Shown here piece by piece: positions 1,493-20,980 of a stretch of 21,841 nt of DNA. Each line of letters starts with the position of its first letter. The first letter of the stretch is position 1. The stretch lies in the IMG/VR virus record IMGVR_UViG_3300040801_000125, positions 1 through 21,841 of that record. One strand, written 5' to 3'. The DNA comes from a virus. Under the pieces are notes generated by a model. The model ran no database searches. It saw nothing but the letters and a program-made list of their open reading frames with translations, and was not told where the DNA came from. The position numbers were made by a program, and so were the translations under genes.

Positions 1493-1529
1493 GAGTTCCA
1501 ATGGGTCAACGAGTGACCCAAAGGAACTC
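1493..1529. promoter_or_regulatory. 37-base near-perfect palindrome before the tail-fibre gene
   Basis: It lies in the 85-base gap between the gp16-like stop (1543) and the tail-fibre ATG (1457). The arms are GAGTTCC, then a 2-base symmetric mismatch, then TGGGTCA, a 5-base loop, TGACCCA, 2 bases and GGAACTC: two perfect 7-bp stems around one internal loop. No T-run follows on the minus strand, so it is not a typical intrinsic terminator. By position it could be an RNA processing or stability hairpin for the fibre mRNA, a factor-dependent terminator, or a protein-binding site. T7 has a promoter (phi17) before this gene, but no T7-type promoter is recognisable here. Confidence 0.7.
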
Positions 1530-4940: not shown

Positions 4941-7922
4941 TTAAGCCTCTCCTCGGCGCTTGAGTTCTTGATCGAAGTCCTTCCACAGCGGATCACCCCG
5001 TTCCTTGAAGAGATCACGGGCGGACTTCAGGGCTGGAGTAGCGTAGGCGTAGAGCAAACGCGGGTTTCCAGCGGAGGTGCGAGTGTTCGCCCGGCTGGTC
5101 TGCTGGTTGCCCTGCAGCGCCTCCATATTCTTCAGAGGATCGACAGGCTTGCCGTCAGGGCTGCGCACCTCGAAGTGCAGGTGAGGCCCGGTGGACTTAC
5201 CGGTGGAGCCGACGGTCGCGATGTTGTCGCCGCGCATGACACGCTGGCCCTTCTTGACGTTGAGCGTCTCTGCGTGGGCGTAGCGGGTGACGTGACCATC
5301 AGGATGCTCGATCTCGACCATGTAGCCATAGCCCCCTCGCTTCCCGGCGGACTTGACGACACCCCCAGCGACGGCGGTGATCGGCGTGCCTGACGGTGCA
5401 GCGATGTCAACGCCTGTGTGCATCTTCTTGACCTTATCGATCGGGTGCATCCGCATACCGAAGTTCGAGCTGATTCGGCCCTCAGTCGCCAACGGCCAGA
5501 CGGATTGGTCAGACGACTGTTGCCTTGTGTCAACCGAAGGTTCGACCATGAGTTCCTCTGGGGTCAGCTGGTTGTCGCCGCCCTGGCCATCCTCAGGGGA
5601 AGGAATCCTGGCGTTCATGATCATAGGGTTGGAGATCAGGTTGTCCTCGCCTGCCTGCTCGATCGACCGGATACGCTTCTGGCGCAGTGCCTCGCTAAGC
5701 ACTCGCAGCTGAGCACTGGTGAAGCGACCAGCGGTCAACTCCATGGTCTCGCCGTTGGGCAGCTCCCAGGTCTTCTTGTCACCAGCGTTGACCACGGGGC
5801 CGAGCGACTTGGACTTCAGGGTCCAGACCGACTGCCCGCCGACAGTATCAGGGACCAGCGCAAGATCACCTGGGTCATCAATGCCCAGTGCCTCGCCGAG
5901 CCCTGAGGCGACATACTCGTCAGCCACGTACTCGGAGATGGTCTCGATGTTCGGTGGGATCGCTCGGTTACCCTTGGTGAAGGCGAAGCCGTTGATGGAC
6001 ATATAGTTGCCCTTCAGGGCATCGGTGGTGATCTTGAAGGCTTGCTTGGGGCTGAAGCCCATCTCCATCAGGGACCGGGCAGAGGTCTTGATGTCCCGCT
6101 TGATGCCCTGCCCGTTGATGACATCGGTCTGCCCACCCTGCCACCAGGACCGGGAGGCTGTCCCCATGACGTCACGAACGGCTTTCTGCAGGTGTTCGCT
6201 GCGATCACTCAGGGCTGAGGTATCGGTCAGCGGCGTGGTGTTCTCCTTCATGCGGGCGACCTGCAGCATCGCTTGATCGGTGTCACCCTTGAACTGGCCC
6301 TTCTCCAATGTGGCCACAGCCTCGTAGAAGGTCTTGGTCTCCTTGTCGACGCCAAGTGCCGATAGCGCACCCTGTGCCTTGAACTCCCTGTACCAGGCCA
6401 TGGCTTCCTTGGCGGCATCCGGGGCCTTGCCCTCAACGAATGCCTTGGCGCTGATCAAGGTGGTCGCTGTCTCGAGCTTGTCGTTGATGTCCTCCCACTG
6501 GTAGCCACTCTGGGCCAGCCAGCTGACGGCATTCTTGGTGACCTGAGGCTTCTCTCGGGGATCAAAGCCTGGGCTTGTGGCCTCACCGAGGGCGATCGTG
6601 GCGATCTGCTCACGCAGCTCATCACCTTCCATGGACTTCATCTGCGTCGGATCGGTCTGGGAGATGACCTGCATGTCGGAGATGTCCCAGATGGCCGAAG
6701 GATCGGCAGCGACAGCGGCAGCCCACGTCTCGATCTCGGTGTTGACCCGCTGGCGAAGTTCGTCGTCGACCTGGCGCTTGGTGTACTCCTGCGCCATCTT
6801 GAGCCTGGACTTCTGTGAGGTCGCCTTGATCCTGGCGATCTGACTCGGGGTCCAGACATCCTTGATCCAAGGGTTGGCCTCGATGTCCTCCTGGATGTCT
6901 TCGCCCAGCGCAGCTCGATACTGCAGGTCCACCAGGAAGCCCTGGTTCACTTCACTGAGCCTGTCGGACTCACGACGCTTGGCCGTTTGTCTGATGGCAT
7001 CGACCTGCTCGCGATACTTGCGCTTCCCAGCGATCGCAGGGATGGTCTCCCCGTCGACCCCTTGGCGCTCTTTCAGTAGCAGCTCCTCGACCAGCGACTC
7101 GTGACCCTGATCGGCAGCCCAAGCGGCAGTCTCGATGACCAGCTCGTCCATCTGAGCGTTCGACAGGTTCAGGTCAGTGCCCGGCCCGTAGCGCCCGTAG
7201 AGCCCCCGGACCCGCTGAGCGATCGCCTCAGGCGGCAAGTCTTCGGCCAGTCCCGCCTGGACAGCCGACAACGCTGTGCCGTAGAAGCCCTCGATGGCCC
7301 GCTCCTGCTGCTTGGCGGCTAGCGCGTTCTGCTGTTCGGTGCGGAGCTTCGGCAGGATGTCCGTGAGTTGACCCTTGATGGTCTCCTGGATGAGAGGGTC
7401 GTCGTACTCTTGGAGGATGGGATCAAGGTGATGGCTGAGGAGCTGGTCGACGCTGGTTTGCGTCAGATCGGTCTGCCCGGACTTGATCCCAGCGAACATC
7501 TTGGTCGCCGCCGAGTAGCCCATGCGCAGCGCAAACTGCTCCTTGAGGGCCTTGCGGTGGTTGGGGCCAAGCAGCTGAGCCTGCTCCTCGTAGAACGCTT
7601 TGGCCTCTTGGTCGTCCATCGAGTACAGCTCGTACTGCAGCTCTTCGGCCTTCTTGTTGCGCTCAGCCTCGAGATACTTCGAGATGTGACCTGTGATCTC
7701 TGGGACCACGGTTGACAGGGCTTTGCCCACCTGGTGCAGCGAGGACTCGTTGAGCCATCGGGCAGAGGAGCGCTCATAGGGGAGGGCAGCCTTCTCGGGC
7801 ATCCTAGGCTTGGCATCGCGACCGGACTTGCTCGGCGCGGCCTTGCGGTCAAAGGTTCGTTGGTAGGCTTCAGTATCGACGGGGCTCGCCGCCGGTCGGA
7901 ATCCTGGAGCGTTGATCGCCAT
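4941..7922 (-). CDS. Internal virion protein, gp15 position, with C-terminal M23 (LytM) peptidase domain
   Basis: A protein of 993 residues, longer than T7 gp15 (747). The start ATG at 7922 (MAINAPGFRP) has GAGGAG about 10 bases upstream; an in-frame ATG 53 codons earlier lies inside the preceding gene and is rejected. The first 800 or so residues are helical and charged with no recognised motif. Residues about 812-930 form an M23 metallopeptidase domain: NFGMRMHP, then HTGVD (H835, D839), YAH (H883) and GPHLHFEV (H914, H916). H835, D839 and H916 fit the zinc ligands, H883 and H914 the catalytic histidines. The domain should cut peptidoglycan cross-links at DNA ejection. A short tail of about 60 residues follows. 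The gene lies between the gp14-like and gp16-like genes, 2 bases from the latter. The gp15 assignment rests on position; the peptidase domain is clear. Confidence 0.88.
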   Translation of the reverse strand: MAINAPGFRPAASPVDTEAYQRTFDRKAAPSKSGRDAKPRMPEKAALPYERSSARWLNESSLHQVGKALSTVVPEITGHISKYLEAERNKKAEELQYELYSMDDQEAKAFYEEQAQLLGPNHRKALKEQFALRMGYSAATKMFAGIKSGQTDLTQTSVDQLLSHHLDPILQEYDDPLIQETIKGQLTDILPKLRTEQQNALAAKQQERAIEGFYGTALSAVQAGLAEDLPPEAIAQRVRGLYGRYGPGTDLNLSNAQMDELVIETAAWAADQGHESLVEELLLKERQGVDGETIPAIAGKRKYREQVDAIRQTAKRRESDRLSEVNQGFLVDLQYRAALGEDIQEDIEANPWIKDVWTPSQIARIKATSQKSRLKMAQEYTKRQVDDELRQRVNTEIETWAAAVAADPSAIWDISDMQVISQTDPTQMKSMEGDELREQIATIALGEATSPGFDPREKPQVTKNAVSWLAQSGYQWEDINDKLETATTLISAKAFVEGKAPDAAKEAMAWYREFKAQGALSALGVDKETKTFYEAVATLEKGQFKGDTDQAMLQVARMKENTTPLTDTSALSDRSEHLQKAVRDVMGTASRSWWQGGQTDVINGQGIKRDIKTSARSLMEMGFSPKQAFKITTDALKGNYMSINGFAFTKGNRAIPPNIETISEYVADEYVASGLGEALGIDDPGDLALVPDTVGGQSVWTLKSKSLGPVVNAGDKKTWELPNGETMELTAGRFTSAQLRVLSEALRQKRIRSIEQAGEDNLISNPMIMNARIPSPEDGQGGDNQLTPEELMVEPSVDTRQQSSDQSVWPLATEGRISSNFGMRMHPIDKVKKMHTGVDIAAPSGTPITAVAGGVVKSAGKRGGYGYMVEIEHPDGHVTRYAHAETLNVKKGQRVMRGDNIATVGSTGKSTGPHLHFEVRSPDGKPVDPLKNMEALQGNQQTSRANTRTSAGNPRLLYAYATPALKSARDLFKERGDPLWKDFDQELKRRGEA

Positions 7923-9138: not shown

Positions 9139-11538
9139 TCATTGGTACCTCCGTGACCGGGCGGTATACAGCGCCTCCCATTCGATGTTCAGCAGGTTCG
9201 ATGGCAGCGGGCTGTCATTGCTGATGACGATGGATACGCCGAGGTTGTTGGCTGTGACAGGGAATCGGAAGACCCCGGTCTGAATCGCTGCAGCACCAAT
9301 CGGGCTGTCCAGCTCATTCAGGGTGTACCCTGTGAACAGGTATTCGTAGGTGGTCCTGCCCTTGGGCGTCACAGCGACCTTGAAGTAGCCGGAGTCGGCA
9401 TAGTTGATCGCCATCCTGCGAATCTGCAGGCGCCCGGATGTCGTCGCCCGGATACCGTTGGCTTCGGTGTTGCGCTCCCTGAGGACCAGGGGTGACAGCT
9501 CGGTCTCCATGGTGTAGCGCTGGCCGACGACCGCGCCTTCGCCTGTGGTGTCCCCCGTCACCCAAACGGCATAGTCGCCCTCTTTCTCGACGACAGGGAT
9601 GATGGTTCCCGCTGGCAGTTCCCCGGTCCCGTCGGCGATGACCTGGAAGTCAGGGTTCTCCATCGCATAGGGCACGAGGTAGCGGGTGCGGTCTTGGTCG
9701 GGATAGTAGTCAGCCGCATAGTCCCCGGCGGTAACCTTGCGATCCAGATGGACACGCCAGACGAACCCTGGGTCGGTGTAGCCCTCGTCGATACGGATGC
9801 GCTCGAGCGTGGTGTAGGTCTTTCGGTTCATGACCAGGAACAGCTCGGCGTCGATGAACTTCGCGTACAGCACCTCTCCATCAGGGAAGGACCACTCGTG
9901 CCAAGCGGCTTGGGACAGGCCCCCGTTCGAGCCCTCGTACCATTGGTACACGGTGAGGGTTGACCGATCGGAACCACTGAGGACAACCAGCATGCGGTTC
10001 TGTGGACTCGCTGTGAGCCCGTAGACCCCACTGGGAATGAACGAGGTAACGTGTTGGGAGATGTCCCTGGGGACGATACTGAGGGACTGGCTGAGCCCTG
10101 ACCGTTCCAAGACGAACTCTGTGATGGCCTCGTTGGTGCCGTTCGGTGTCGCGGCGAAGACCGATGACCCTGCGAGGGCAGGCATGGCCCTAAGGTCCGT
10201 CGGGTATTCCGAGAGAGGACTCACGGTGATCGAGGAGGGCGACAGGGGTCCATCGCTTGAGAGGACGTACTGCGTGTAGTCGGAGAACAGCAGCACTTCA
10301 CCCCCGAACGGCACAGCCTCCCGGATCGCAGAGACGTTCTTGCCGCTGACCTGGAAGTCGATAGGATCAGAGGCCAACAGCTGAGTGGCAGTGCTTCGAC
10401 CGAAGTTCAGGTAGGCCCCTGTGCGCGACATGCTCAAGGCGTTACCGGCAATAAAGCAGAGACGGTCGGCGTGCAGGAAGGTGTCCGAGATGGTGGTCCC
10501 TAGGAAGCTCGGCTGGGGGTTCGTGGTGTCATCGCCGCAATCGCGGGAAGCCCAGTCGCCCTGCCGGAACTCGAAGTTGCCATCAGGCAGGCGCACCAAC
10601 AGGTGAGGCATGGTCGCAGGATCGAATGAATCCTTCAGGCCAGGCTTGAGAATTTCCTTCCAGACCCCCTTTTTGAGGGCAGCTGGGTCACCCTGGAACT
10701 GGAGGTAATAGGTGTCGTACTCCGAGCCCTCAGTGCCGATCACAGCAATCTGGAAGTCTCCGACGCCCACTTCAGGGAGCGACGTGAACGACTGAACCTC
10801 GTCCTTGATGGCCACGATCTGGGCATCGTCAGTGCTCGCAGTCACTTCGACATCAAAGTCATCCATGGCATCATGGTAGATGTGCAGGACGCTGAGGTTG
10901 GGACCATAGTGACAGTTGAAGCCGTCGACCCCTTCGATCCCGCCGTTCACCGAAAGCTGCCGAGCGATCTCTGCGGTCTGGACCGTGGTCTCGTCGGTGG
11001 CGTCCGTGGTGTAGGAGGCTGTCAGGGTCGAGCCGTCCTGCTTGGTGACGGTAATCGTGTAGGTGGTGTCATAGTTGCCTGCCCTGATCCACACGAGCGC
11101 CTCAGGGAGCCGTGGGTTGGTCGCGATGGAGTCCAGGGACCGTGTAGTGACCTCCTTGTTGGTGATCAGGGTGTAGTCGTTGTAGGTGGAGATGGAGAAG
11201 GACAGCTCTGGAGCGTTGCTGACGCTGAGATAGTCCTTGCCGTCTGCAAAGTGAATGGTCTTCTCGTTGCCTTGGAAGTCGAAGACCTTCAGGTCGCCGT
11301 CGAGGAGCACGATGATGTACTTCTCGAACCGGTCCCTGACGACGGTGTGCAGGTAGGCCCCGGACAGGTCATACCCCAGGGCGGTGATGTGTTCAGTGTT
11401 TGGACGCTTGCGAAGCCCATTGGCTGGCGAGGACACAGCGTTGACCTGACGCTCATGCTGGTTACTCGCTCGAAGCGTGAAGGGCTGTTGGGAAACGCCC
11501 CCAATCAGGTTGGGTAAGCTCTCTCGGACCAATCCCAT
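9139..11538 (-). CDS. Tail tubular protein B, T7 gp12-like (nozzle)
   Basis: A protein of 799 residues, close to T7 gp12 (794). ATG at 11538 (MGLVRESLPNLIGGVSQQP) follows GAGGTGG, and the preceding gene stops 3 bases upstream. The LIGGVSQQP opening with RASNQHERQVNAVSSPANGLRKRP is the hallmark start of gp12-family proteins. SGSDRSTLTVYQW and SAAWHEWSF-like segments in the middle fit the beta-propeller part. The C-terminus contains GRLQIRRMAINYADSGYF and SPIGAAAIQTGVFRFPV, typical of the family. In T7 a hexamer of this protein forms the tail nozzle below the gp11 adaptor. It is cotranscribed with the gp11-like gene downstream of the capsid terminator. Confidence 0.93.
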   Translation of the reverse strand: MGLVRESLPNLIGGVSQQPFTLRASNQHERQVNAVSSPANGLRKRPNTEHITALGYDLSGAYLHTVVRDRFEKYIIVLLDGDLKVFDFQGNEKTIHFADGKDYLSVSNAPELSFSISTYNDYTLITNKEVTTRSLDSIATNPRLPEALVWIRAGNYDTTYTITVTKQDGSTLTASYTTDATDETTVQTAEIARQLSVNGGIEGVDGFNCHYGPNLSVLHIYHDAMDDFDVEVTASTDDAQIVAIKDEVQSFTSLPEVGVGDFQIAVIGTEGSEYDTYYLQFQGDPAALKKGVWKEILKPGLKDSFDPATMPHLLVRLPDGNFEFRQGDWASRDCGDDTTNPQPSFLGTTISDTFLHADRLCFIAGNALSMSRTGAYLNFGRSTATQLLASDPIDFQVSGKNVSAIREAVPFGGEVLLFSDYTQYVLSSDGPLSPSSITVSPLSEYPTDLRAMPALAGSSVFAATPNGTNEAITEFVLERSGLSQSLSIVPRDISQHVTSFIPSGVYGLTASPQNRMLVVLSGSDRSTLTVYQWYEGSNGGLSQAAWHEWSFPDGEVLYAKFIDAELFLVMNRKTYTTLERIRIDEGYTDPGFVWRVHLDRKVTAGDYAADYYPDQDRTRYLVPYAMENPDFQVIADGTGELPAGTIIPVVEKEGDYAVWVTGDTTGEGAVVGQRYTMETELSPLVLRERNTEANGIRATTSGRLQIRRMAINYADSGYFKVAVTPKGRTTYEYLFTGYTLNELDSPIGAAAIQTGVFRFPVTANNLGVSIVISNDSPLPSNLLNIEWEALYTARSRRYQ

Positions 11539-12152: not shown

Positions 12153-12191
12153 GAAAAAAAGGGGAGCCCCTGTCGAAACAGGAGACTCCCC
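12153..12191 (-). terminator. Intrinsic terminator after the capsid gene
   Basis: Read on the minus strand: GGGGAG, a few mostly pairable bases, CCTG, a 6-base loop (TTTCGA), CAGG, GG and CTCCCC, followed at once by seven Ts and soon another T-run. Stem, loop and T-tract fit a strong rho-independent terminator. It sits between the major capsid and gp11-like genes, the position of T7's T-phi, where partial termination gives much more capsid than tail mRNA. Confidence 0.9.
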
Positions 12192-12258: not shown

Positions 12259-12280
12259 AGGGTTACGTTCTGTCAACCCT
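12259..12280 (-). promoter_or_regulatory. GGTTGACAGAACG element after the capsid stop codon
   Basis: Minus strand: the capsid stop TAA, three Gs, then TTGACAGAACG. The 13-base core (12266-12278) is identical to one after the reductase stop (17599-17611). Here alone it is framed by AGGGTT and AACCCT, giving a 6-bp stem with a 10-base loop. Because the core but not the stem is conserved, a DNA-level site such as a phage promoter or binding site is more likely than an RNA hairpin. TTGACA equals the sigma-70 -35 consensus but no -10 hexamer follows at the usual distance. Confidence 0.5.
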
Positions 12281-13332
12281 TAGCCAAGGATGACGTCAGC
12301 CTCGACGCCAGCGGACGTGAGGTTGGTCTTGGTGTCGTTGGCCACCTCGACGGCGCCCTCAGGACGGAGCACACCGTGACCCACGGCATACTTGGCGACC
12401 ATGAAGGTAGCCTGGTGACGGATCGAGTAGTCCATCTCCATGGCCAGGTCGAGCAGCTTGACGGTACCGATGGCGCTCGGGTGCATGACCATCGCAGCAG
12501 TCGCGCTGTAGTCACCGGCGTACTTCGCACCGGAACCCTGGTCGGGACCAGCGGCAACACCAGTGGTGATGTTGGACGACGGCAGGTTGTTGGTCATGAT
12601 GACAGGCATGCCAGCGATCACCGGGACGTTGCCCATCGCGTAGCTGCCCATGCCACCGTAGTCACGGTTGAGCACATCCTTGTTCTCGATCAGGCGGAAG
12701 TATTGAGCCGGACGGACAAAGATGAAGCACTCATCATGCGGGACGTCCTTCTCCTCGAGCTTCTCGGCAGCCTTGTAGAGGGCCTGCACGAGATCATCGC
12801 CAGAGGTGAAGTAGTTGGCAGTGGCGGGAGCGCCGGTATAGTCGGTCGGCAGGACCAGACCATCACCATGACCCTCGGCACCAGCGATCGCAGCGAGACT
12901 GCGGGCAGCCTGTAGGCCAACAGCAGCGACGTGCTTGTCCATCTGGCGAGCCAGGGCCTTGCCCATCTCGTTCGAGTAGACGCCACGGACATCGTAGTGG
13001 TTCTTGGCCTCATCGATGTTCGCGATGGACTTGTGGGTCACCAGAAGGTCATCGATGGTGATGATCTTCTCAGCATGCTTGACCTCGCCACCGGTCAGCT
13101 CGTTGCCTGGAGTATGGTACTCGGCGTCGGCGACCTTACCGATCACGGGGAATTGCGCACTCTTACCCTGAGCGATCGTGCGAACCTGATGCTTGTCCAT
13201 GAAGACGTTGGTCTCTGCGAACGAGGTCAGAACCTCACCAGAGAACACCTTCAGGAACAGCGCGTTGTCCTGTGCCCAAGTGCCGGTAACGGCGTTGTCC
13301 GAGCCAAGACGAGAGACAGTGAAATCAGCCAT
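12280..13332 (-). CDS. Major capsid protein, T7 gp10A-like
   Basis: A protein of 350 residues (T7 gp10A: 345). ATG at 13332 is preceded by TTGGAGTAAG with good spacing. The sequence shows the HK97-fold T7-type pattern: ALFLKVFSGEVLTSFAETNVFMDKH near the N-terminus, KSAQFPVIGKVADAEYHTPGNEL, ITIDDLLVTHKSIANIDEA, and DVLNRDYGGMGSYAMGNVPVIAGMPVIMTNNLP late in the protein. It forms the icosahedral shell. The gene has a 235-base noncoding leader and is followed by a strong terminator, an arrangement that favours abundant capsid mRNA. No programmed frameshift extension (the T7 gp10B form) is evident: the next bases after the stop are the TTGACAG element. Confidence 0.95.
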   Translation of the reverse strand: MADFTVSRLGSDNAVTGTWAQDNALFLKVFSGEVLTSFAETNVFMDKHQVRTIAQGKSAQFPVIGKVADAEYHTPGNELTGGEVKHAEKIITIDDLLVTHKSIANIDEAKNHYDVRGVYSNEMGKALARQMDKHVAAVGLQAARSLAAIAGAEGHGDGLVLPTDYTGAPATANYFTSGDDLVQALYKAAEKLEEKDVPHDECFIFVRPAQYFRLIENKDVLNRDYGGMGSYAMGNVPVIAGMPVIMTNNLPSSNITTGVAAGPDQGSGAKYAGDYSATAAMVMHPSAIGTVKLLDLAMEMDYSIRHQATFMVAKYAVGHGVLRPEGAVEVANDTKTNLTSAGVEADVILG

Positions 13333-13567
13333 TTGAGCTTACTCCAATTAGCGGAAGTGAATGAAAGTTCATTCGCTCCACGTCACTCAAACGCCTAACG
13401 AACTCACACAAGGTTGTCCTCCGCAGAGGGCCATGGCTTGCGTAAGCGTTCATTCGTTCAGTGGTAGCGCTTTGCGCCCGTCTAAAGAGACGCAGCGTGG
13501 TAGCACTTCAATCGCTATTGGACATCCCAAGAGGCCCCAATGGGGCCACTCAGGATTCACTTGGGGG
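13333..13567 (-). promoter_or_regulatory. Noncoding hairpin-rich leader of the capsid gene
   Basis: The largest gene-free stretch in the window. On the minus strand it holds, in order: GGCCCC-ATT-GGGGCC (13533-13547), CGTCT-CTTT-AGACG (13479-13492), GCGC-AAA-GCGC (13467-13477) and a 9-bp imperfect hairpin around CGAATGA-ACTT-TCATTC (13356-13377), then the ribosome binding site GGAG. On the plus strand GTGGTAGC occurs twice (13461, 13497) and GTTCATTCG twice (13367, 13448). T7 places its strongest late promoter (phi10) here, but I cannot recognise a specific promoter sequence. No open frame with a ribosome binding site was found. Confidence 0.6.
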
Positions 13568-13828
13568 TTACCGGTCGAGCCAGTCGTCGACGGACTCCAT
13601 GGCGGTGCGGTGTTGGGCCTTAATGACTTCACGTTCGCCAGGGATTTCCTTGGCGGTGAACGAGAAGATACCGGCGAGCACCTCGATGACCTTGTAGGCT
13701 TTGCCCACGAGCTTGTCGTCGGCAGGCGTGGGCGTCAGGTTGACGACAGCCACAGCCAGGCCGTGCAGTGCGGCGAGGGCGGCGAAGATGCCGTCGGCGT
13801 TCGCCATGAGAAACGTGATGATGTCCAT
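13568..13828 (-). CDS. Small holin-like membrane protein
   Basis: A protein of 86 residues. ATG at 13828 follows GAGGTAATCACCA; the scaffold gene stops about 24 bases upstream. Residues about 10-32 (IFAALAALHGLAVAVVNLT) are hydrophobic enough to span a membrane, a second weaker stretch lies at about 45-58 (YKVIEVLAGIFSF), and the C-terminus is charged (KEIPGEREVIKAQHR). A short protein with one or two membrane segments and a charged tail fits a holin that would release the GH108 endolysin, but no family motif proves this. It lies between scaffold and capsid, where T7 has no gene. Alternative: a small membrane or capsid-associated protein of unknown role. Confidence 0.6.
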   Translation of the reverse strand: MDIITFLMANADGIFAALAALHGLAVAVVNLTPTPADDKLVGKAYKVIEVLAGIFSFTAKEIPGEREVIKAQHRTAMESVDDWLDR

Positions 13829-13852
13829 TGGTGATTACCTCTAGGATGAGCT

Positions 13853-14593
13853 TCAGAAGAATTTCGAGTTGGCGACCCGCTGGGCCACTTCTTCGCGGTA
13901 GGCGCTATCGGCCTTGTAGCGAGGATCACGCATGGCCTGCAGCATCTCGCCTTGAGACCCGAAGCCACGGGCGGACGCTGGGGCAGGCTTGCCGCCGAAG
14001 AGGTTCGGCTCGTTGCCCTGGGCTGCGGCGTACCGGGCTTGGAGCCCTTGGACGGTCGCCTTGACCTGGTGGACATCGTTCGACTGCATGATCTTGTTGT
14101 AGGCTGCCACCTCGTTCTTATCGAGGTTCTGGCCTGCCCAAGCGATCATCTGGTCGTATGCTTCCTTACCGCCGACAGCGCTCAGAACTTCGTTGGTCTG
14201 CTGTGAGACGACAGCCTTCTGGCCATCAGCCCACTGCTTCACGAAGTCTTCCGGGATGCCGACCTTGTTCAGGGCTTCACGCTGGGACTCAGGAATCTCC
14301 TCGCCGTTGACCAGTGCGGACTGGATGGCATTGAAGTCGACCTGCTGAGGCGGCTGCTGCGGCTGGCTGAGCTTCTTCTCCAGCTCCTGGTATGCCTTGG
14401 CCAGCTCCGAAGGGTCTTTGAACTTCTCCGGGAGCCACTCGGGGCGATCCGACGGTTGCTCCTGCGGATGCTCCTGGGGCTGCTCCGAAGGTTGGCCTTG
14501 GTTGGTCTCCTGTCCGGTCGGCTGTTCCTGACCAGTGGGTTGCTCCGGGATGCCCCCGACGATCTGCTCGCTGTTCTGCTCTTGGTTAGCCAT
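13853..14593 (-). CDS. Scaffolding (capsid assembly) protein, T7 gp9-like
   Basis: A protein of 246 residues, acidic and very rich in Gln, Glu and Pro. The first 50 residues contain repeated (Q)EQPTGQE and QPQEHPQEQP units. PEWLPEKFKDPSELAKAYQELEKKL (about 52-76) is the recognisable scaffold motif found in many T7-like phages; the rest is predicted helical, ending in AYREEVAQRVANSKFF. It follows the portal gene and precedes the capsid module. Scaffold proteins guide procapsid assembly and leave before packaging. The ATG at 14593 lacks a good Shine-Dalgarno sequence; the only purine-rich bases upstream (AGGTGACAG) belong to a TTGACAG-like element. Confidence 0.9.
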   Translation of the reverse strand: MANQEQNSEQIVGGIPEQPTGQEQPTGQETNQGQPSEQPQEHPQEQPSDRPEWLPEKFKDPSELAKAYQELEKKLSQPQQPPQQVDFNAIQSALVNGEEIPESQREALNKVGIPEDFVKQWADGQKAVVSQQTNEVLSAVGGKEAYDQMIAWAGQNLDKNEVAAYNKIMQSNDVHQVKATVQGLQARYAAAQGNEPNLFGGKPAPASARGFGSQGEMLQAMRDPRYKADSAYREEVAQRVANSKFF

Positions 14594-14599
14594 AGTTGA

Positions 14600-14610
14600 C
14601 TTCTGTCACC
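14600..14610 (-). promoter_or_regulatory. Divergent TTGACAG-like element between portal and scaffold genes
   Basis: The minus strand reads GGTGACAGAAG in the 30-base gap between the portal stop and the scaffold ATG. It resembles the GGTTGACAGAACG element at 12266 and 17599 but lacks one T, and GTCAAC follows, so the site is partly palindromic. T7 places promoter phi9 in the same gap. The call is tentative. Confidence 0.3.
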
Positions 14611-14623
14611 TATTGTGAGTGGT

Positions 14624-16165
14624 TTAAGGTTGCTGCTGCTGCGGGTTCTGCTGGGCCTGCTGCTGTGCCATCTTCATGGCTTCAGGCCCCAGCTGCTGCA
14701 CCATCTGTTGACGCTGGGCGGCTTGGCGCTCCTGGGCGATCTGTTCTGCAGACTTGACCAGCCCGTCCATGTCGATGCCTAGAGAGACACCGATGCGAGC
14801 GATGAAGTCCTGAGGATTGATCGACCCTGCGAAGGCTTCCGGTCCAAGCGTTCTCTGCACGAGATCACCGAAGGTCATCAGCCGTTGCAGCTCATGGCCT
14901 CGGCCTAGGGCTTCGAGTCCTGTCGTGATGGTCGGCTCGACTTCCTTGGGCAGCGGCGGAATCCGCTTCTGTCGGGTGAGCGTAGCGATCAGGCGCCGGA
15001 CCATCGGCAGCTGCAGCTCCTGAGCGAGGATCGAGTAGACGCCACCAAGGGCATCTTCCAGCTCATTGGCTGTGATCCTGATCTCCTCAGCAGTGACGCG
15101 CTCGGCATCGCGCCGAACACCATCGAACAGCATGAAGGCTTGCGCCAGGCGTTGCTCGATCTTGCTGGACATCTCCAGGGCGACCCTGAAGTCCGCGTAC
15201 TTCTCGAACTGCAGGACACTGACGTCCTCGGCCCGGCCCGAGCGCACAGCAAGGTTCGGAGCTTCCGAGATGTCCCGGATTCTGGTGAGCCCATTGGGGT
15301 TGACCAGCATGAGGAGCTTCGAGGCAGCGGCTGAGCCCTGCACGACCGCAGTGGTGAGCCCTTCGAGGGACCGCAGGTCACCGAGGTATTCCTCGACGTG
15401 GCCCCTGCCGTAGTCTTCACCGTCGATCTTGGCCCAACGCAGGGCGATCCAGGGGGAGCGCTCAATCGGCACGTTGCCCTTGGTCTGATCGATCACAATG
15501 TCCAGCGCTTCCTGGTGGAAGTAGACCTTGTTGCCGTCTCGGCGGACCCAGGTGTAGACGTCGATCTCGCTGGGCTTGCCCTCCCCTTCCTGGGAGACAG
15601 GCACTTGCTCGGTGATCTCCTTGGGCAGTGCCGACGGGCTGATGGACTCCTTGGTGACCAGTTCAAGCAGGTTGCCCTCAGCGTCTCGCTTGCAGACATA
15701 GCGATCCAGCGAGTACACGCGCATGCCACCATCGGGCGGTAGGTAGAGCAGGGCGTTACCGACGACCATCAGATGCTTGAGGCCCTCAAAGGCCGACACG
15801 CGGATGGTTGAGGTCTCGATCTCGGACATGATGGCCCGCTCGATCTCGCCGAGGGCCTTCTCGACGTCTGTGCGTTTGCTCCCGTCACCGCCAGTCAGCG
15901 ATTGCAGGGCGAAGTCGCTCAGCTGCAGCCGAAAGAAGGGATTGCTGGGCGGCAAGAGGGCCATCAGGAGCTTCGACGCCAGGTTGTTGACGCCTCGAGC
16001 CCCGAGTCCCTGGTAGGGGGTCGGCAGGTCCGACGTGCTGTTGTGGCCATCTCTGGGGAGCAAAGCAGGGATCGTGAGTTCCGAGGCTTCCCTGCCCCGA
16101 TCAAGGTAGGGTTGTCGGCCAGGTTCCAGTTCCATGTACCGGCCTTTCGCTGTGGATGCAGCCAT
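14624..16165 (-). CDS. Portal protein (head-tail connector), T7 gp8-like
   Basis: A protein of 513 residues (T7 gp8: 536). ATG at 16165 follows AGGAG, which overlaps the last codons of the preceding gene. Typical podovirus portal features are seen: the N-terminal segment with REASELTIPALLP and TPYQGLGARGVNNLASKLLMALLPP, KHLMVVGNALLYLP, SPWIALRWAKIDGEDYGRGHVEEYLGDLRSLEGL in the clip/stem region, and AEEIRITANELEDALGGVYSILAQELQLP. The C-terminal 40 residues are Gln-rich (QRQQMVQQLG, then QQNPQQQQP). The dodecameric portal is the entry pore for packaging and the seat of the tail. It is first of the portal-scaffold-capsid series. Confidence 0.95.
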   Translation of the reverse strand: MAASTAKGRYMELEPGRQPYLDRGREASELTIPALLPRDGHNSTSDLPTPYQGLGARGVNNLASKLLMALLPPSNPFFRLQLSDFALQSLTGGDGSKRTDVEKALGEIERAIMSEIETSTIRVSAFEGLKHLMVVGNALLYLPPDGGMRVYSLDRYVCKRDAEGNLLELVTKESISPSALPKEITEQVPVSQEGEGKPSEIDVYTWVRRDGNKVYFHQEALDIVIDQTKGNVPIERSPWIALRWAKIDGEDYGRGHVEEYLGDLRSLEGLTTAVVQGSAAASKLLMLVNPNGLTRIRDISEAPNLAVRSGRAEDVSVLQFEKYADFRVALEMSSKIEQRLAQAFMLFDGVRRDAERVTAEEIRITANELEDALGGVYSILAQELQLPMVRRLIATLTRQKRIPPLPKEVEPTITTGLEALGRGHELQRLMTFGDLVQRTLGPEAFAGSINPQDFIARIGVSLGIDMDGLVKSAEQIAQERQAAQRQQMVQQLGPEAMKMAQQQAQQNPQQQQP

Positions 16166-16168
16166 GCG

Positions 16169-16666
16169 TTAAGCTCCTGGGATCGTGAGAAGGTTGCGCC
16201 GCTTGGCCCGCTTGAAGTTGTCTTGCAGCACGACGTGCGTTGAGCCCTGCTGGTCACCCTCGTTGGCGATCAGAAGGTCAGATGCTGAGACGCTTTCCTC
16301 GGGGGGCGGCGGTGGCGCAGCAATCTCCTCCTCGACTTCATCCAGCTGGTCGTCGTTGTAGTCCTCGACCTCATCATTCAGGTCGTCGGCCCGGTCCTCG
16401 ACCTCATCCGCGTCATCGCGCATCCCTGTGTCGTCGGCCCCACTCGAAGAGCTATCGCCTGTCGCTTCTTGTTCTGGCCATAGGTCTTCCTGGCCATTAC
16501 GCCCCCAGGCGTCCCAGTCCTGCGCATCAGTCCCATAGATGTTGAGTCCGCCGGACCACGATCGGCGCCTCTGGGTACGTCGGGCACCTCCGGGAGGGTC
16601 AATGCCCAAATCCTTGTAGAGGTCACCAAGCGAGTCGTACTCGTTGCCTCCATACCTGTAATTCAT
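16169..16666 (-). CDS. Unidentified acidic protein upstream of the portal gene
   Basis: A protein of 165 residues. ATG at 16666 is preceded by GGAGG placed in the last codons of the preceding gene. The N-terminus is Tyr/Gly/Asp-rich (MNYRYGGNEYDSLGDLYKDLG), followed by an Arg patch (RRTQRRRSW), a Ser/Gly linker, a strongly acidic, possibly coiled-coil stretch at about 80-115, five consecutive prolines, and a basic C-terminus (FKRAKRRNLLTIPGA). T7 has small structural genes (6.7, 7.3) just before the portal gene, and a basic C-terminus is also found in gp7.3, so a minor virion or tail-assembly role is plausible. This rests on position only; no homology is claimed. Confidence 0.8.
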   Translation of the reverse strand: MNYRYGGNEYDSLGDLYKDLGIDPPGGARRTQRRRSWSGGLNIYGTDAQDWDAWGRNGQEDLWPEQEATGDSSSSGADDTGMRDDADEVEDRADDLNDEVEDYNDDQLDEVEEEIAAPPPPPEESVSASDLLIANEGDQQGSTHVVLQDNFKRAKRRNLLTIPGA

Positions 16667-16674
16667 GATGTGTT

Positions 16675-16899
16675 CTAGCCTCCAGGGTCGTCATTGGTAT
16701 TCAAGATGTCCCTGGTCTGTTCTTCGTGGATGGCCTTGAGGTATCGAACGACCTCTCGTGCCCCCACTTCCCGCCAGATACGACGCTCATCCCAAGCTGG
16801 ATCAGGGCACCGCTCAGGGAATCGCTCATCAAGCGCCTCCAAAAGGTCTCCAGGGATTCCAGGGAATGAGGTGACTTGGGGATTACTTAGGGTGTACAT
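16675..16899 (-). CDS. Small protein of unknown function (74 aa)
   Basis: ATG at 16899 follows TAGGAG by 6 bases. The protein is small, soluble-looking and charged, with DLLEALDERFPERCPDP, then DERRIWREVGAREVVRYLKAIHEEQT, likely a helix-turn-helix-sized helical unit but with no recognised motif. Its stop overlaps the spacing region of the next ribosome binding site. It lies between the endolysin and the portal module, the place of the small T7 genes 6.5-7.3. No function can be assigned. Confidence 0.75.
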   Translation of the reverse strand: MYTLSNPQVTSFPGIPGDLLEALDERFPERCPDPAWDERRIWREVGAREVVRYLKAIHEEQTRDILNTNDDPGG

Positions 16900-16929
16900 T
16901 TCGCACTCCTATATGGGGCGTCATTTTGC

Positions 16930-17547
16930 TTATCGGATCAAGGCGATAAGACCTGCAACCACCTGATCCAATCGCAACAATTGCTCGTCAATCAATTCGT
17001 CCCGAGTCATCTCCTCCTGATCGCTGGCTAACATCAGGGAATCCTCGCGGACCCGCTGAACTCGAGCTTTCCAGCCGCGCTTGAAGGTGCTCCAGGTCTT
17101 GAGCCGCTGCATGAAGGCCAAGCGTCGATCGCAGATGGCCTCGATGAGATCGGCAGTCCCGTGACGGTTGACGTGCGCTGTGACTGCGGTGAGCGTGCGG
17201 GGTCCGAACGCACCATCAGGCTTAGCACCGACGACACGCTGGACAGTCTTGGTTGCCTGACGTGGACCGCTGTTGACCGCATAGTCGAAGACGCAATAGT
17301 CCACCCCAGCAGGCAGCTGATCGCCCTTGATGGGCAGCCAATAGCGCTGGCGGTAGATGTGGGCCACCTCTTCATCGGTGATCCGCTTCAGGTCATCCAC
17401 AGTGGCGTTATCGCCCATGACCGATCGGTAGGTGCGCAGGGTGATGCCGCGATTGGTGTGCCCGCCGGGGTCAAGTGGGTGGTTCACATAGCCACCTTCC
17501 GATTCATCGAGGGCCTCGAGGGCGAAGTCGTCAAAGGTTTGTCGCAT
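16930..17547 (-). CDS. Endolysin, GH108 N-acetylmuramidase
   Basis: A protein of 205 residues. ATG at 17547 (MRQTFDDFALEAL) is preferred over a GTG five codons upstream because TGGAG lies about 9 bases before the ATG and the GTG overlaps it. The GH108 signature is clear: SEGGYVNHPLDPGGHTNRGIT with catalytic Glu17 in EGGY, then ITDEEVAHIYRQRYW, GVDYCVFDYAVNSGP and a C-terminal peptidoglycan-binding part with GAFGPRTLTAV. It cuts the glycan chain of peptidoglycan for lysis. There is no signal peptide, so a holin is needed; the small membrane protein at 13568-13828 is the only candidate here. T7 instead uses an amidase (gp3.5). The TTGACAG element lies in the 65-base gap upstream. Confidence 0.92.
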   Translation of the reverse strand: MRQTFDDFALEALDESEGGYVNHPLDPGGHTNRGITLRTYRSVMGDNATVDDLKRITDEEVAHIYRQRYWLPIKGDQLPAGVDYCVFDYAVNSGPRQATKTVQRVVGAKPDGAFGPRTLTAVTAHVNRHGTADLIEAICDRRLAFMQRLKTWSTFKRGWKARVQRVREDSLMLASDQEEMTRDELIDEQLLRLDQVVAGLIALIR

Positions 17548-17598
17548 TACGGTGGTCTCCACAGTGAGTTGTTGGAGCGTCCCTGCTCAGTGTAATTC

Positions 17599-17611
17599 CG
17601 TTCTGTCAACC
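17599..17611 (-). promoter_or_regulatory. GGTTGACAGAACG element after the reductase stop codon
   Basis: Three bases (CGG, whose GG is part of the core) separate the stop TGA from TTGACAGAACG. The 13-base core is identical to the element after the capsid gene; a related CACTGAG follows here and CAGTGAG there at nearly the same distance. No hairpin is formed here. T7 has a promoter (phi6.5) at the corresponding start of the late genes, so a late promoter or regulator site is a reasonable guess. Confidence 0.5.
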
Positions 17612-17612
17612 G

Positions 17613-19346
17613 TCAGTCACAGGTACGATCGCCGGTCACAGGATCGAACGTGCATGCCTCGACGGCTTCCTCGGGCGTCTCCTCGTCGACAGGCTGGGCC
17701 TGCAGGATGCCGAAGCGCTTGCCTGCCGCTCGGAAGGTGGTCATGCCCTTGGCGCCATCCATGTAGCCCTGCAGGTACAAGCCTTTGAACTCGTCGTAGG
17801 GCACTTGATCGCCGACGTTGCAGGTCTTGGAGCAAGCAGAATCGACCCACTGCTGAGCCACGGCCAGAACATTGACGTGTTGCTCGGCGGTGACTTCATC
17901 GGCAGTGGCTCCCCGAATCCCAAGGAACCTGTAGCCGTAGTCCTGCACCTTCTCGATCTTGGCGCCATCGAAGGTCTGGATGGTCCGCTGGTACTCGAGG
18001 GTGTAAGGGGGCTCGATGCCTGAGGACACGTTGTCGGCGGTGATCGAGATGGTCCCTGTCGGCGCGATGGACAGCAGGTGACTGTTGCGGATACCGAACT
18101 TCAGCACTGCGTCCCGAATCTCAGCAGGCATGCGCTGCATGAAGCCAGACTGGATGTACTTCTCCCGGTCCAACAGCGGGAAACTGCCCTTCTCCTTGGC
18201 CAGGTTGATGCTGGCGTTGTAGGTCTCCCAAGCGATGAACGAGAGCACGTCAGCCTCAGCCTCGAGGAACGCCTGCGTGCCGTAGCGATACCCGCAGGCT
18301 TCCAGGGCGTTGGCCAGGCCGGTGACGCCTAGGCCCATGCGGCGCTTGTTCTTGGCCTCGATCTCCTGCTCGGGCAACGGGTAGGTCGTGCGGTCGATCA
18401 CGTTGTCCATGGCCCGGACGACATGCGGGATGTCCTCGGCGAGCTGCCGGTAGTCGAGCCCCATCCCCTTGCCATCGTCGCGTGGCTTGAGGTACTTCAC
18501 CAGATTCCAAGAGCCCAACAAGCAGGCACCGAACGGGGGCAGCGGCTGCTCTCCGCAAGGATTTGTGGCAGCGATCTGCTCGCAGTACCAGAGGTTGTTC
18601 TCTTCGTTGATCCTGTCGATGAAGAGCACGCCGGGCTCAGCCCAGTCCCAATTGGTGCGCATGATCTCGTCCCAGAGATCGGTGGGGTCAATCCATTCGT
18701 AGATGCGCCCGTCGAAGCGCAGCGGGAACTTCTGGCCTCGCTCGAGGTGATCCATGAACTCATCGGTGACACCGACGGAGATGTTGAAGCCGTTGAGCTT
18801 GTCGCTGTTGCGCTTGGCGCGGATGAACTGGAGGATGTCCGGGTGGTCGATCCGCAGCACAGCCATCTGAGCACCTCGGCGGTGACCGCTGGAGGCAATG
18901 GTCTGACAGACGGCATCGAAGATCGACATGAAGCTGACAGGGCCACTGGCCTGACTGTCGAGCGACTTGATGCGATCCCCTCGGGGGCGAATGTTCGAGA
19001 AGTCGTAGCCGATGCCTCCACCGAGGCGCATGGTCTCCGCAGCTTCAGTCGCGCGCTGCATGATGCTGGCCATGGAGTCTTCGATGGCGCCACTGACGAA
19101 GCAGTTGTAAGCGGTGACGGTCTTGAGGGCGCCCATGGCGGACTGGACTCGGCCCCCAGCGAGGAACCCCTGATCCAGCAGGATCGGCTTGAGCGCCCGG
19201 AAGTGCTCAGGGTTATCGGCCAAGGCCCCAGCGTTTCGGACCATCGCATCCCTGAAGTTCTCGCCGTCTTGGCGATACTTCATCTGGTGCATCTCTCGAG
19301 CCAGCGGGGTGACCGGCCCGTACACAATGTGGTTCTTCTCTGTCAT
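17613..19346 (-). CDS. nrdJ: Class II (adenosylcobalamin-dependent) ribonucleotide reductase
   Basis: A protein of 577 residues that should reduce ribonucleotides to deoxyribonucleotides with a B12-derived radical. The central motif NPCGEQPLPPFGACLLGS gives the thiyl-radical Cys264 with Asn262 and Glu266, and Cys275, which with Cys82 (in YNCFVSGAI) fits the active-site disulfide pair. RLGGGIGYDFSNIRPRG and RRGAQMAVLRIDHPDI are typical barrel motifs. There is no N-terminal ATP-cone and no NrdB-like small subunit gene beside it, both consistent with class II. The C-terminus carries two cysteines (C565 and C576), a candidate for the redox-relay pair, although the spacing is wider than usual. It is the last gene of the metabolic block. 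ATG at 19346 has only a weak purine-rich upstream sequence. A functional enzyme implies a host that makes or imports cobalamin. Confidence 0.93.
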   Translation of the reverse strand: MTEKNHIVYGPVTPLAREMHQMKYRQDGENFRDAMVRNAGALADNPEHFRALKPILLDQGFLAGGRVQSAMGALKTVTAYNCFVSGAIEDSMASIMQRATEAAETMRLGGGIGYDFSNIRPRGDRIKSLDSQASGPVSFMSIFDAVCQTIASSGHRRGAQMAVLRIDHPDILQFIRAKRNSDKLNGFNISVGVTDEFMDHLERGQKFPLRFDGRIYEWIDPTDLWDEIMRTNWDWAEPGVLFIDRINEENNLWYCEQIAATNPCGEQPLPPFGACLLGSWNLVKYLKPRDDGKGMGLDYRQLAEDIPHVVRAMDNVIDRTTYPLPEQEIEAKNKRRMGLGVTGLANALEACGYRYGTQAFLEAEADVLSFIAWETYNASINLAKEKGSFPLLDREKYIQSGFMQRMPAEIRDAVLKFGIRNSHLLSIAPTGTISITADNVSSGIEPPYTLEYQRTIQTFDGAKIEKVQDYGYRFLGIRGATADEVTAEQHVNVLAVAQQWVDSACSKTCNVGDQVPYDEFKGLYLQGYMDGAKGMTTFRAAGKRFGILQAQPVDEETPEEAVEACTFDPVTGDRTCD

Positions 19347-19352
19347 GGGGTT

Positions 19353-19363
19353 CTCTCTGTCAA
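19353..19363 (-). promoter_or_regulatory. TTGACAGAGAG element before the reductase gene
   Basis: It starts 2 bases after the TGA stop of the MazG-like gene and fills the gap to the reductase ATG. It shares TTGACAGA with the elements at 12266 and 17599. Part of it (GAGAGA) may serve as a weak ribosome binding site, which could by itself explain the similarity. Confidence 0.35.
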
Positions 19364-19365
19364 CT

Positions 19366-20221: not shown

Positions 20222-20980
20222 CTAGCCTTCGGGTGTCCATGGGCGCACCCCTCGCTTCTTGCTGTACTCACCCTTGCGGAGAATCCTTGCGACCTGCGCC
20301 TGGACCAGTGCTTCCTCTGCTGAGGACTTGGCCTTGACATAGGCAGGCACGATGACGTCCTTCCAGATCGCTGAGATGTCCTTGCTGTCGATCTTCCCGT
20401 CGTCCGGCAGGAGCGCTTGGGCGCGCTTGGGGCCGATCCCTGGGCAGCCTGAGTAGCCGTCAGTGGTATCGCCGGTCAGCGCCTGGTACAGGTGCCACCA
20501 GTTGGCCTCAGGTTCGCTGATCTCCAAGACATCACTCTCGAGATCACGTAGGTACCTACATGGGATGGTCTTCAGGTCTTTGTCGATCGACCAGACGATG
20601 CTGTCGCCCTTGTGACTGCCGGTTGCCCAGACCCCTAGGATGTCATCACCTTCCAAGGACGGAACCACGAGGGCACCGAGGTTGGCGATCAGGTGTTCCC
20701 GGATGGCGATCAGGGCTAGGGGCTTCTTACCTCCCTTCCTGTTTTCCTTGTAGGTCGGCAGGATGTCCTTGCGCCAATTCCAAGCGGTATCCGTGAGGGC
20801 CAGTTGGTAGCCGTCAGCTCCGACGGTTTCCACGGCTTGGTCAATCCATCGTTCCGCTGTGTCAACTGCACGGTCGGCGTCGACATGCCAGGTCCAGAAG
20901 CCCGGCTCCCATTCGATGGCTTCCTCGATGACCTGCGCAGCCTTGTAGGCCACGACGTCAGCATCAATCAGTAGCATCAT
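20222..20980 (-). CDS. 5'-3' exonuclease, T7 gp6-like
   Basis: A protein of 252 residues (T7 gp6 is about 300). The ATG at 20980 overlaps the PhoH stop (ATGA) and has AGGAG 8 bases upstream; a second ATG follows directly. An earlier in-frame start lies inside the PhoH gene. FEN/PIN nuclease features: IDAD (D6, D8), NWRKDILPTYKENRKGGKKP, LEGDD (about 109-113), IDKDLKTIP, and GDTTDGYSGCPGIGPKRAQ (about 170-188), the metal-binding acidic residues plus helix-hairpin DNA-binding motif. ANWWHLYQALTGDTTDGYSG closely matches T7 gp6. In T7 this enzyme degrades host DNA and removes RNA primers, feeding nucleotides to replication. Confidence 0.93.
   Translation of the reverse strand: MMLLIDADVVAYKAAQVIEEAIEWEPGFWTWHVDADRAVDTAERWIDQAVETVGADGYQLALTDTAWNWRKDILPTYKENRKGGKKPLALIAIREHLIANLGALVVPSLEGDDILGVWATGSHKGDSIVWSIDKDLKTIPCRYLRDLESDVLEISEPEANWWHLYQALTGDTTDGYSGCPGIGPKRAQALLPDDGKIDSKDISAIWKDVIVPAYVKAKSSAEEALVQAQVARILRKGEYSKKRGVRPWTPEG

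Follow-up and report, generated by a model that had tools for sequence, protein, structure and literature searches.

A repeated element directly past stop codons in a T7-like phage fragment: a candidate dispersed repressor operator

Introduction

T7-like phages were long regarded as strictly lytic. How such phages stay silent as prophages is an open question and, because a self-activating phage RNA polymerase runs away from little leak, a single blocked promoter may not suffice. In Pasto and LUZ100, two temperate phages of this type, lysogeny has been proposed to be switched by a MarR regulator whose sites flank the RNA polymerase promoter (PMC10134795); sites at stop codons are not mentioned there, but a prior description of such sites is possible. 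Dispersed operators are known from the cluster A mycobacteriophages (L5 and its kin), in which stoperators are short (13-16 bp), repeated, mostly intergenic sites that keep one orientation relative to transcription and have a lineage-specific consensus; they are asymmetric, are recognised by a repressor that binds as a monomer, and act on the RNA polymerase of the host (PMC9283540, PMC6550527). Here, we analyse a 21,841-base viral fragment (IMG/VR record IMGVR_UViG_3300040801_000125; the whole of this stretch is called the window), in which a short element containing TTGACAGA is repeated directly past three stop codons, and we compare this element with the systems described above.

Results

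A repeated element follows stop codons

The 13-mer GGTTGACAGAACG is present as two exact copies only, at 12266-12278(-) and 17599-17611(-), each starting one base after a stop codon, that of the capsid gene and that of the reductase gene, respectively; an earlier note on this DNA had given these copies as identical at 13 of 13 positions, which is correct. The shorter word GTTGACAGA has three copies in the window, each directly 3' of a stop, and TTGACAGA also has three, all on the minus strand (0.81 expected from shuffles) and at 3, 3 and 2 nt past the capsid, reductase and MazG stops, in agreement with the spacing of 2-3 bases noted earlier. Of the word TGACAGAA, the whole window has just three copies, all of them in intergenic DNA and on the coding strand. 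The copy past the MazG stop, GTTGACAGAGAG, stands where the earlier note had placed it but occupies 19353-19364 instead of 19353-19363; likewise, the divergent copy in the portal-scaffold gap, GGTGACAGAAG at 14600-14610(-), is present as described, but a probable T7-type promoter that overlaps it had been missed. The description of all four copies as intergenic and on the coding strand holds for the following sites:

Site A, 12262..12278, minus strand: GGTTGACAGAACGTAAC, begins 1 nt past the capsid stop; with its flanks GGGTT-N10-AACCC
Site B, 17595..17611, minus strand: GGTTGACAGAACGGAAT, begins 1 nt past the reductase stop; 13-mer the same as in site A
Site C, 19349..19364, minus strand: GTTGACAGAGAGAACC, begins 1 nt past the MazG stop and extends into the reductase ribosome-binding region
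Site D, 14595..14610, minus strand: GGTGACAGAAGTCAAC, the sole exact GKTGAC-N4-GTCAMC dyad of the window

Intergenic DNA makes up 943 of the 21,841 bases, and the TTGACAGA element is its only clearly repeated element. Several near-identical short copies stand at gene boundaries, as in a dispersed operator or stoperator-like site. The reductase gene begins ATGACAGAGAAGAAC, which puts a near-copy of the element immediately behind the MazG copy. The MazG-reductase gap together with the start of the reductase gene, 19332-19364(-), resembles an imperfect tandem copy (TTGACAGAGAGAACCCC / ATGACAGAGAAGAACCAC).

A 13-mer shared at about equal offset came up in one of 4000 first-order Markov simulations of the stretches past the stops, and a 9-mer common to three genes in none of the 4000. 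Among random non-overlapping stretches of the same strand, a 13-mer was common to two in 51 of 20,000 draws and a 9-mer common to three in 15 of 20,000. Both location-aware nulls thus give ~3e-3 or less, a value that is somewhat optimistic because the nulls were devised after the pattern had been seen. We conclude that the repeated element is real and that its placement after stop codons is beyond chance.

The copies extend to a partly symmetric 16-mer

Sites A-D extend to the partly symmetric 16-mer GTTGAC-N7-AAC. GTTGAC followed by AAC at exactly 7 nt is found five times in the window, and each of the other spacings from 3 to 11 nt is found at most once; the expected number for 7 nt is 0.12, 0.19 and 0.29 under Markov models of order 1, 3 and 5, respectively, and none of 900 runs reached five. 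The dyad is near-perfect at site D, site A has the outer arms GGGTT/AACCC, and B and C are weakly symmetric. When a matrix was built from sites A-D alone, the coding copies F, G and H ranked next. Orientation is constant among the intergenic sites A-D, and only the coding-region copy H is reversed. The further possible sites are:

Possible site E, 1495..1510, minus strand: GTTGACCCATTGGAAC, within a long hairpin of the gap that precedes the tail fibre gene; may be hairpin only
Possible site F, 20851..20866, minus strand: GTTGACACAGCGGAAC, within the exonuclease gene
Possible site G, 5519..5534, minus strand: GTTGACACAAGGCAAC, within an internal virion protein gene
Possible site H, 9959..9974, plus strand: GTTGACCGATCGGAAC, within the tail tube B gene, in reversed orientation

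The hairpin that includes site E, at 1485-1530 between the large internal virion protein and tail fibre genes, is strong (-24.6 kcal/mol, z -4.95) and lacks a T run; its possible roles are RNase III cleavage, attenuation or the pairing of operator halves.

Site D overlaps a probable T7-type promoter

The portal-scaffold gap reads TTAAACCACTCACAATAGGTGACAGAAG. Two predicted transcription signals lie at or near the repeated sites:

14605..14627, minus strand: T7-type promoter TTAAACCACTCACAATA followed by GGTGAC, +1 at 14610, 14 nt past the portal stop, judged from sequence and register
12154..12191, minus strand: intrinsic terminator downstream of site A, in the capsid-tail tube gap, at the position of T7 Tphi (-23.6 kcal/mol, z -4.4, then a T run)

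The promoter sequence TTAAACCACTCACAATA followed by GG is the best match of the window to the T7 consensus (15/23), a score that is by itself not far above background, given several matches of 14/23 elsewhere in the window. The stronger argument is its register to the portal stop: in T7 phi9 and gh-1 phi12 the promoter likewise begins in the portal stop codon, and transcription starts ~13-15 nt past it. In the promoter of the window, TGACAGAA forms positions +3 to +10. The gap therefore probably holds a phi9-type promoter that overlaps site D; because the window has no near-identical second copy of this promoter, the assignment is probable rather than sure. At the corresponding portal-scaffold junction, LUZ100 and most other relatives have no gap.

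Palindromes past stop codons recur in relatives

We searched for relatives with the portal, capsid, reductase, tail tube B and exonuclease proteins among viral contigs and with the capsid protein among bacterial and archaeal genomes. Neither viral contigs nor bacterial and archaeal genomes nor phage records gave a close relative, the best protein identities being ~53-64%; among cultured phages, LUZ100 is nearest by its capsid and tail tube B proteins. In a phylogeny built on the portal, capsid and tail tube B proteins, the window falls into a clade with LUZ100, Rhizobium phages and BB8 (support 0.95), which also takes in loci from Litchfieldella, Devosia and Rhizobiales genome assemblies. Integrase genes are carried by LUZ100, RHEph01, RHEph21, BB8 and Pasto, and TRX32-1 was obtained by induction of a lysogen.

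Five of these six T7-like phages have a palindrome of their own, specific to the lineage, that stands 1-16 nt past stop codons (P values, 4e-5 to 2e-8 over the five, are binomial for closeness to stops). The LUZ100 palindrome CTATCCACYRRCGCATAG has 4 of 9 sites 1-5 nt past stops (P 4e-5), at +3, +1, +1 and +5 after the genes for RNA polymerase, gp14, primase and capsid, respectively. RHEph01, RHEph21 and TRX32-1 have TCCACCNGTGAAT in common, which is post-stop at 7/19, 5/9 and 7/18 sites (P 4e-8, 4e-7 and 2e-8); in RHEph01 it lies at +5 to +10 after gp04, RNA polymerase, gp15, primase, nucleotide kinase, capsid and the large internal virion protein. For the Pasto palindrome GTCACTCAAAGGTGAC, four of eight sites lie at +8 to +16 after four genes that include RNA polymerase (P 1e-5). 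No post-stop palindrome was seen in BB8. Reversed-pattern controls gave 0-5 sites, compared with 8-19 for the real palindromes. An automatic search for shared post-stop words, which covered partial relatives and missed sites with insertions or deletions, gave a clear result for RHEph01, a weaker one for TRX32-1, RHEph21 and the window, and little elsewhere.

The relatives' palindromes also have copies in the early or repressor promoter region. In LUZ100, CTATCCACYRRCGCATAG lies between the -35 and -10 boxes of the mapped early host promoters P1 and P2 (locus L133, 376-393 and 577-594); LUZ100, RHEph01 and Pasto have a palindrome between integrase and RNA polymerase, and RHEph01 and Pasto also have one upstream of the regulator. 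These are places in which an operator would be expected. Moreover, regulator identity tracks the sharing of palindromes: the MarR-like regulators of RHEph01, RHEph21 and TRX32-1, which share a palindrome, are 74-92% identical, and those of LUZ100 and Pasto, which have other palindromes, are 24-31% identical to them. The Pfam match to a MarR-like winged helix passes the cut-off in RHEph01 and TRX32-1 and falls short of it in the remaining relatives.

A search of 2.9 million viral contigs for the window element (GGTTGACAGAACGNAA) gave 40 stretches, none from a close relative and none with two matches. The earlier note had held that absence of the 13-mer from other intergenic regions of the genome and from related phages would count against its proposal; the outcome is mixed, since the exact word was found in no related phage, and its position and arrangement recur but its sequence does not. 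The related viral contigs L026 and L030 have CCTTGACAGG/CATTGACAGG 12-20 nt past the capsid stop, which is reminiscent of, and not equal to, the window element.

Alternative explanations

The earlier note offered two functions for the element, a promoter for a phage RNA polymerase and a binding site for another phage regulator. The former, in which GG(T)TGACAG would be the specificity region of a promoter for a single-subunit polymerase of divergent specificity and the next bases the start, has in its favour that a phage promoter should repeat and that the TTGACAGA element is the one clear intergenic repeat; that promoter-like repeats of the contigs L015 (CAATTAGGGGACAGTCTTGGAG), L021 (CAATTAAGTGACAGTCTAGGAG) and L039 (GGTTGCAGTTATGGAGG) share words with it, site D reading CAATAGGTGACAG; and that phage promoters of relatives also lie close to stop codons. 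The T7-type promoters (T7 phi9, gh-1 phi12, LUZ100 phi1-phi8) are, like the element, intergenic, on the coding strand and often directly past a stop. However, the element has no CACT-TATA-GG core, and the sites, which read TTGACAG-AACGT, -AACGG, -AGAGA and -AAGTC, lack the AT-rich melting stretch and the +1 G of the mapped LUZ100 promoters and of the promoter-like repeats in related contigs. The LUZ100 promoters, mapped by cappable-seq, have the motif AATTACCACACAG-N3-TGGAG, unlike the window element (PMC10134795), and matches to the promoter consensuses of relatives are at background. There is also no copy upstream of the capsid gene (best match 8/13), where LUZ100 has the mapped promoter phi7; site A stands directly before the strong terminator; a separate and fuller T7-type promoter, in the register conserved for phi9, probably runs into site D; and a dyad is unexpected of such a promoter. 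We therefore consider a phage promoter unlikely. The binding site for another regulator, by contrast, gains support from the dyad extension and from the palindromes at the same position in five relatives.

A short stretch duplicated locally from one gene end to another, together with TTGACAGA words that are unrelated and without function, could give a similar picture: only two copies are exact, 13-mer repeats are expected several times in 22 kb if location is ignored, and the exact word with its flanks is found in other viral contigs only as unrelated matches. The location-aware nulls, the intergenic position of 3/3 GTTGACAGA and 3/3 TGACAGAA copies and the spacing-specific excess of the dyad make such copying or chance quite improbable. 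A post-stop RNA hairpin (GUU-loop-AAC), serving 3'-end stability, RNase III cleavage or the binding of a phage RNA-binding protein, would agree with the folding of A and D, which is better than that of shuffles (z -2.5 each), and with the RNase III sites annotated in gh-1 after promoters at the same gene boundaries. Yet folding is lacking at B and C (-1.4 and 0 kcal/mol), which leaves no conserved structure, and A and B conserve primary sequence and not a stem. With favourable folding at only two of the four sites, the symmetry more probably belongs to the DNA than to a conserved RNA hairpin, and we regard the RNA element as very improbable.

Other candidates were rejected. An ordinary sigma-70 promoter, which the earlier note had also dismissed, would share the perfect -35 word TTGACA, but no -10 hexamer follows at 16-18 nt at any site. 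The best matches to SP6-, T3- and K11-type promoter consensuses fall elsewhere than at the sites. GG as a transcription start, with the promoter in the end of the upstream gene, disagrees with the mutual dissimilarity of the 17 bases upstream of A, B, C and D, and a small peptide (TTG ACA GAA ... at each site) would have no ribosome-binding site and frames that vary.

Other features of the window

A weaker promoter candidate and two further observations concern the surrounding gaps and genes.

17554..17576, minus strand: tentative T7/gh-1-type promoter candidate TCCAACAACTCACTGTG followed by GAGACC, before the endolysin-like gene

In the 235-base gap before the capsid gene, 13333-13567, imperfect direct repeats (GTGCTACCACGCTGCG / GCGCTACCACTGAACG) are present, and neither a promoter nor a tRNA is recognised; the pre-capsid region holds a tRNA-Asn in LUZ100 and the RHEph phages, and in LUZ100 also a mapped promoter. 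At the start of the orphan gene upstream of the portal gene, ACAGGTATGGAGG (16647-16666(-)) matches -6 to +6 of the LUZ100 promoters phi2-phi4, which is perhaps chance or ribosome-binding context. In the window as a whole, there is no tRNA and no match to a known structured RNA.

Discussion

We suggest, with a probability of about 0.5, that the element is a dispersed, stoperator-like operator of a phage repressor, specific to its lineage, in a temperate-type T7-like phage. Several lines of evidence point to this reading: the placement of the copies beyond chance, the excess of the dyad at the 7-nt spacing and the ranking of F, G and H by the A-D matrix; the overlap of the exact dyad of site D with a T7-type promoter and the post-stop palindromes of five relatives; and the match between regulator identity and palindrome sharing, together with the clade that joins the window to LUZ100, Rhizobium phages and BB8.

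On this proposal, the repressor would probably be a small winged-helix MarR-like regulator encoded in the early half of the genome, which is missing from the fragment and would also carry the RNA polymerase and any integrase. It would bind a partly symmetric site of ~16 bp, roughly GTTGAC-A(G/C)A-NNG-N-AAC, and the operators would be set directly past stops, where coding is undisturbed. In the lysogen, the repressor would block transcription at the places where it is bound: at site D it would cover the start of the phi9-like promoter, and at sites A, B and C it may be a roadblock that keeps transcription from running on into the next gene, in the manner of the stoperators of cluster A mycobacteriophages.

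A number of points weigh against the operator reading. Intergenic copies number only three to four, and the word count is weak when location is left aside (3 of 100 shuffles reach 12 matches at <=3 mismatches). Only A and D look symmetric, the right halves of B and C being weak, and some of the extended matches, which fall within genes or a hairpin, may be chance. The sequence of the element is unlike the palindrome of every relative, so that the argument is one of position and not of homology; the lysogeny sites of Pasto and LUZ100 rest partly on hypotheses in the literature. Moreover, a long branch leads to the window, whose precise position within the clade is unsupported (0.365). Because the early region is outside the fragment, the binder cannot be named, and a temperate lifestyle is inferred from the relatives.

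Compared with the L5 sites, the element is alike in position, orientation and repetition and, in the relatives of the window, in having some copies in promoters. It differs in being partly symmetric and in lying among late genes whose transcription is expected to depend on a phage RNA polymerase. It is a predicted operator; neither homology to the L5 sites nor membership in the stoperator class is claimed. The MarR sites proposed for Pasto and LUZ100 belong to the same phage group, in which we find palindromes both near RNA polymerase or early promoters and past stops; they differ in sequence and are described only as flanking the RNA polymerase promoter (PMC10134795).

More broadly, it is possible, although on balance doubtful, that temperate T7-like phages silence the prophage by stoperators placed past stops throughout the genome, which would be roadblocks also to their own single-subunit RNA polymerase, and that the window represents a new operator specificity. 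If this is true, repressor sites past the RNA polymerase, primase and capsid stops would form a brake that acts at many points, and immunity groups would be readable from sequence alone. The stop-proximal palindromes in five phages make the idea of such a many-point brake directly testable.

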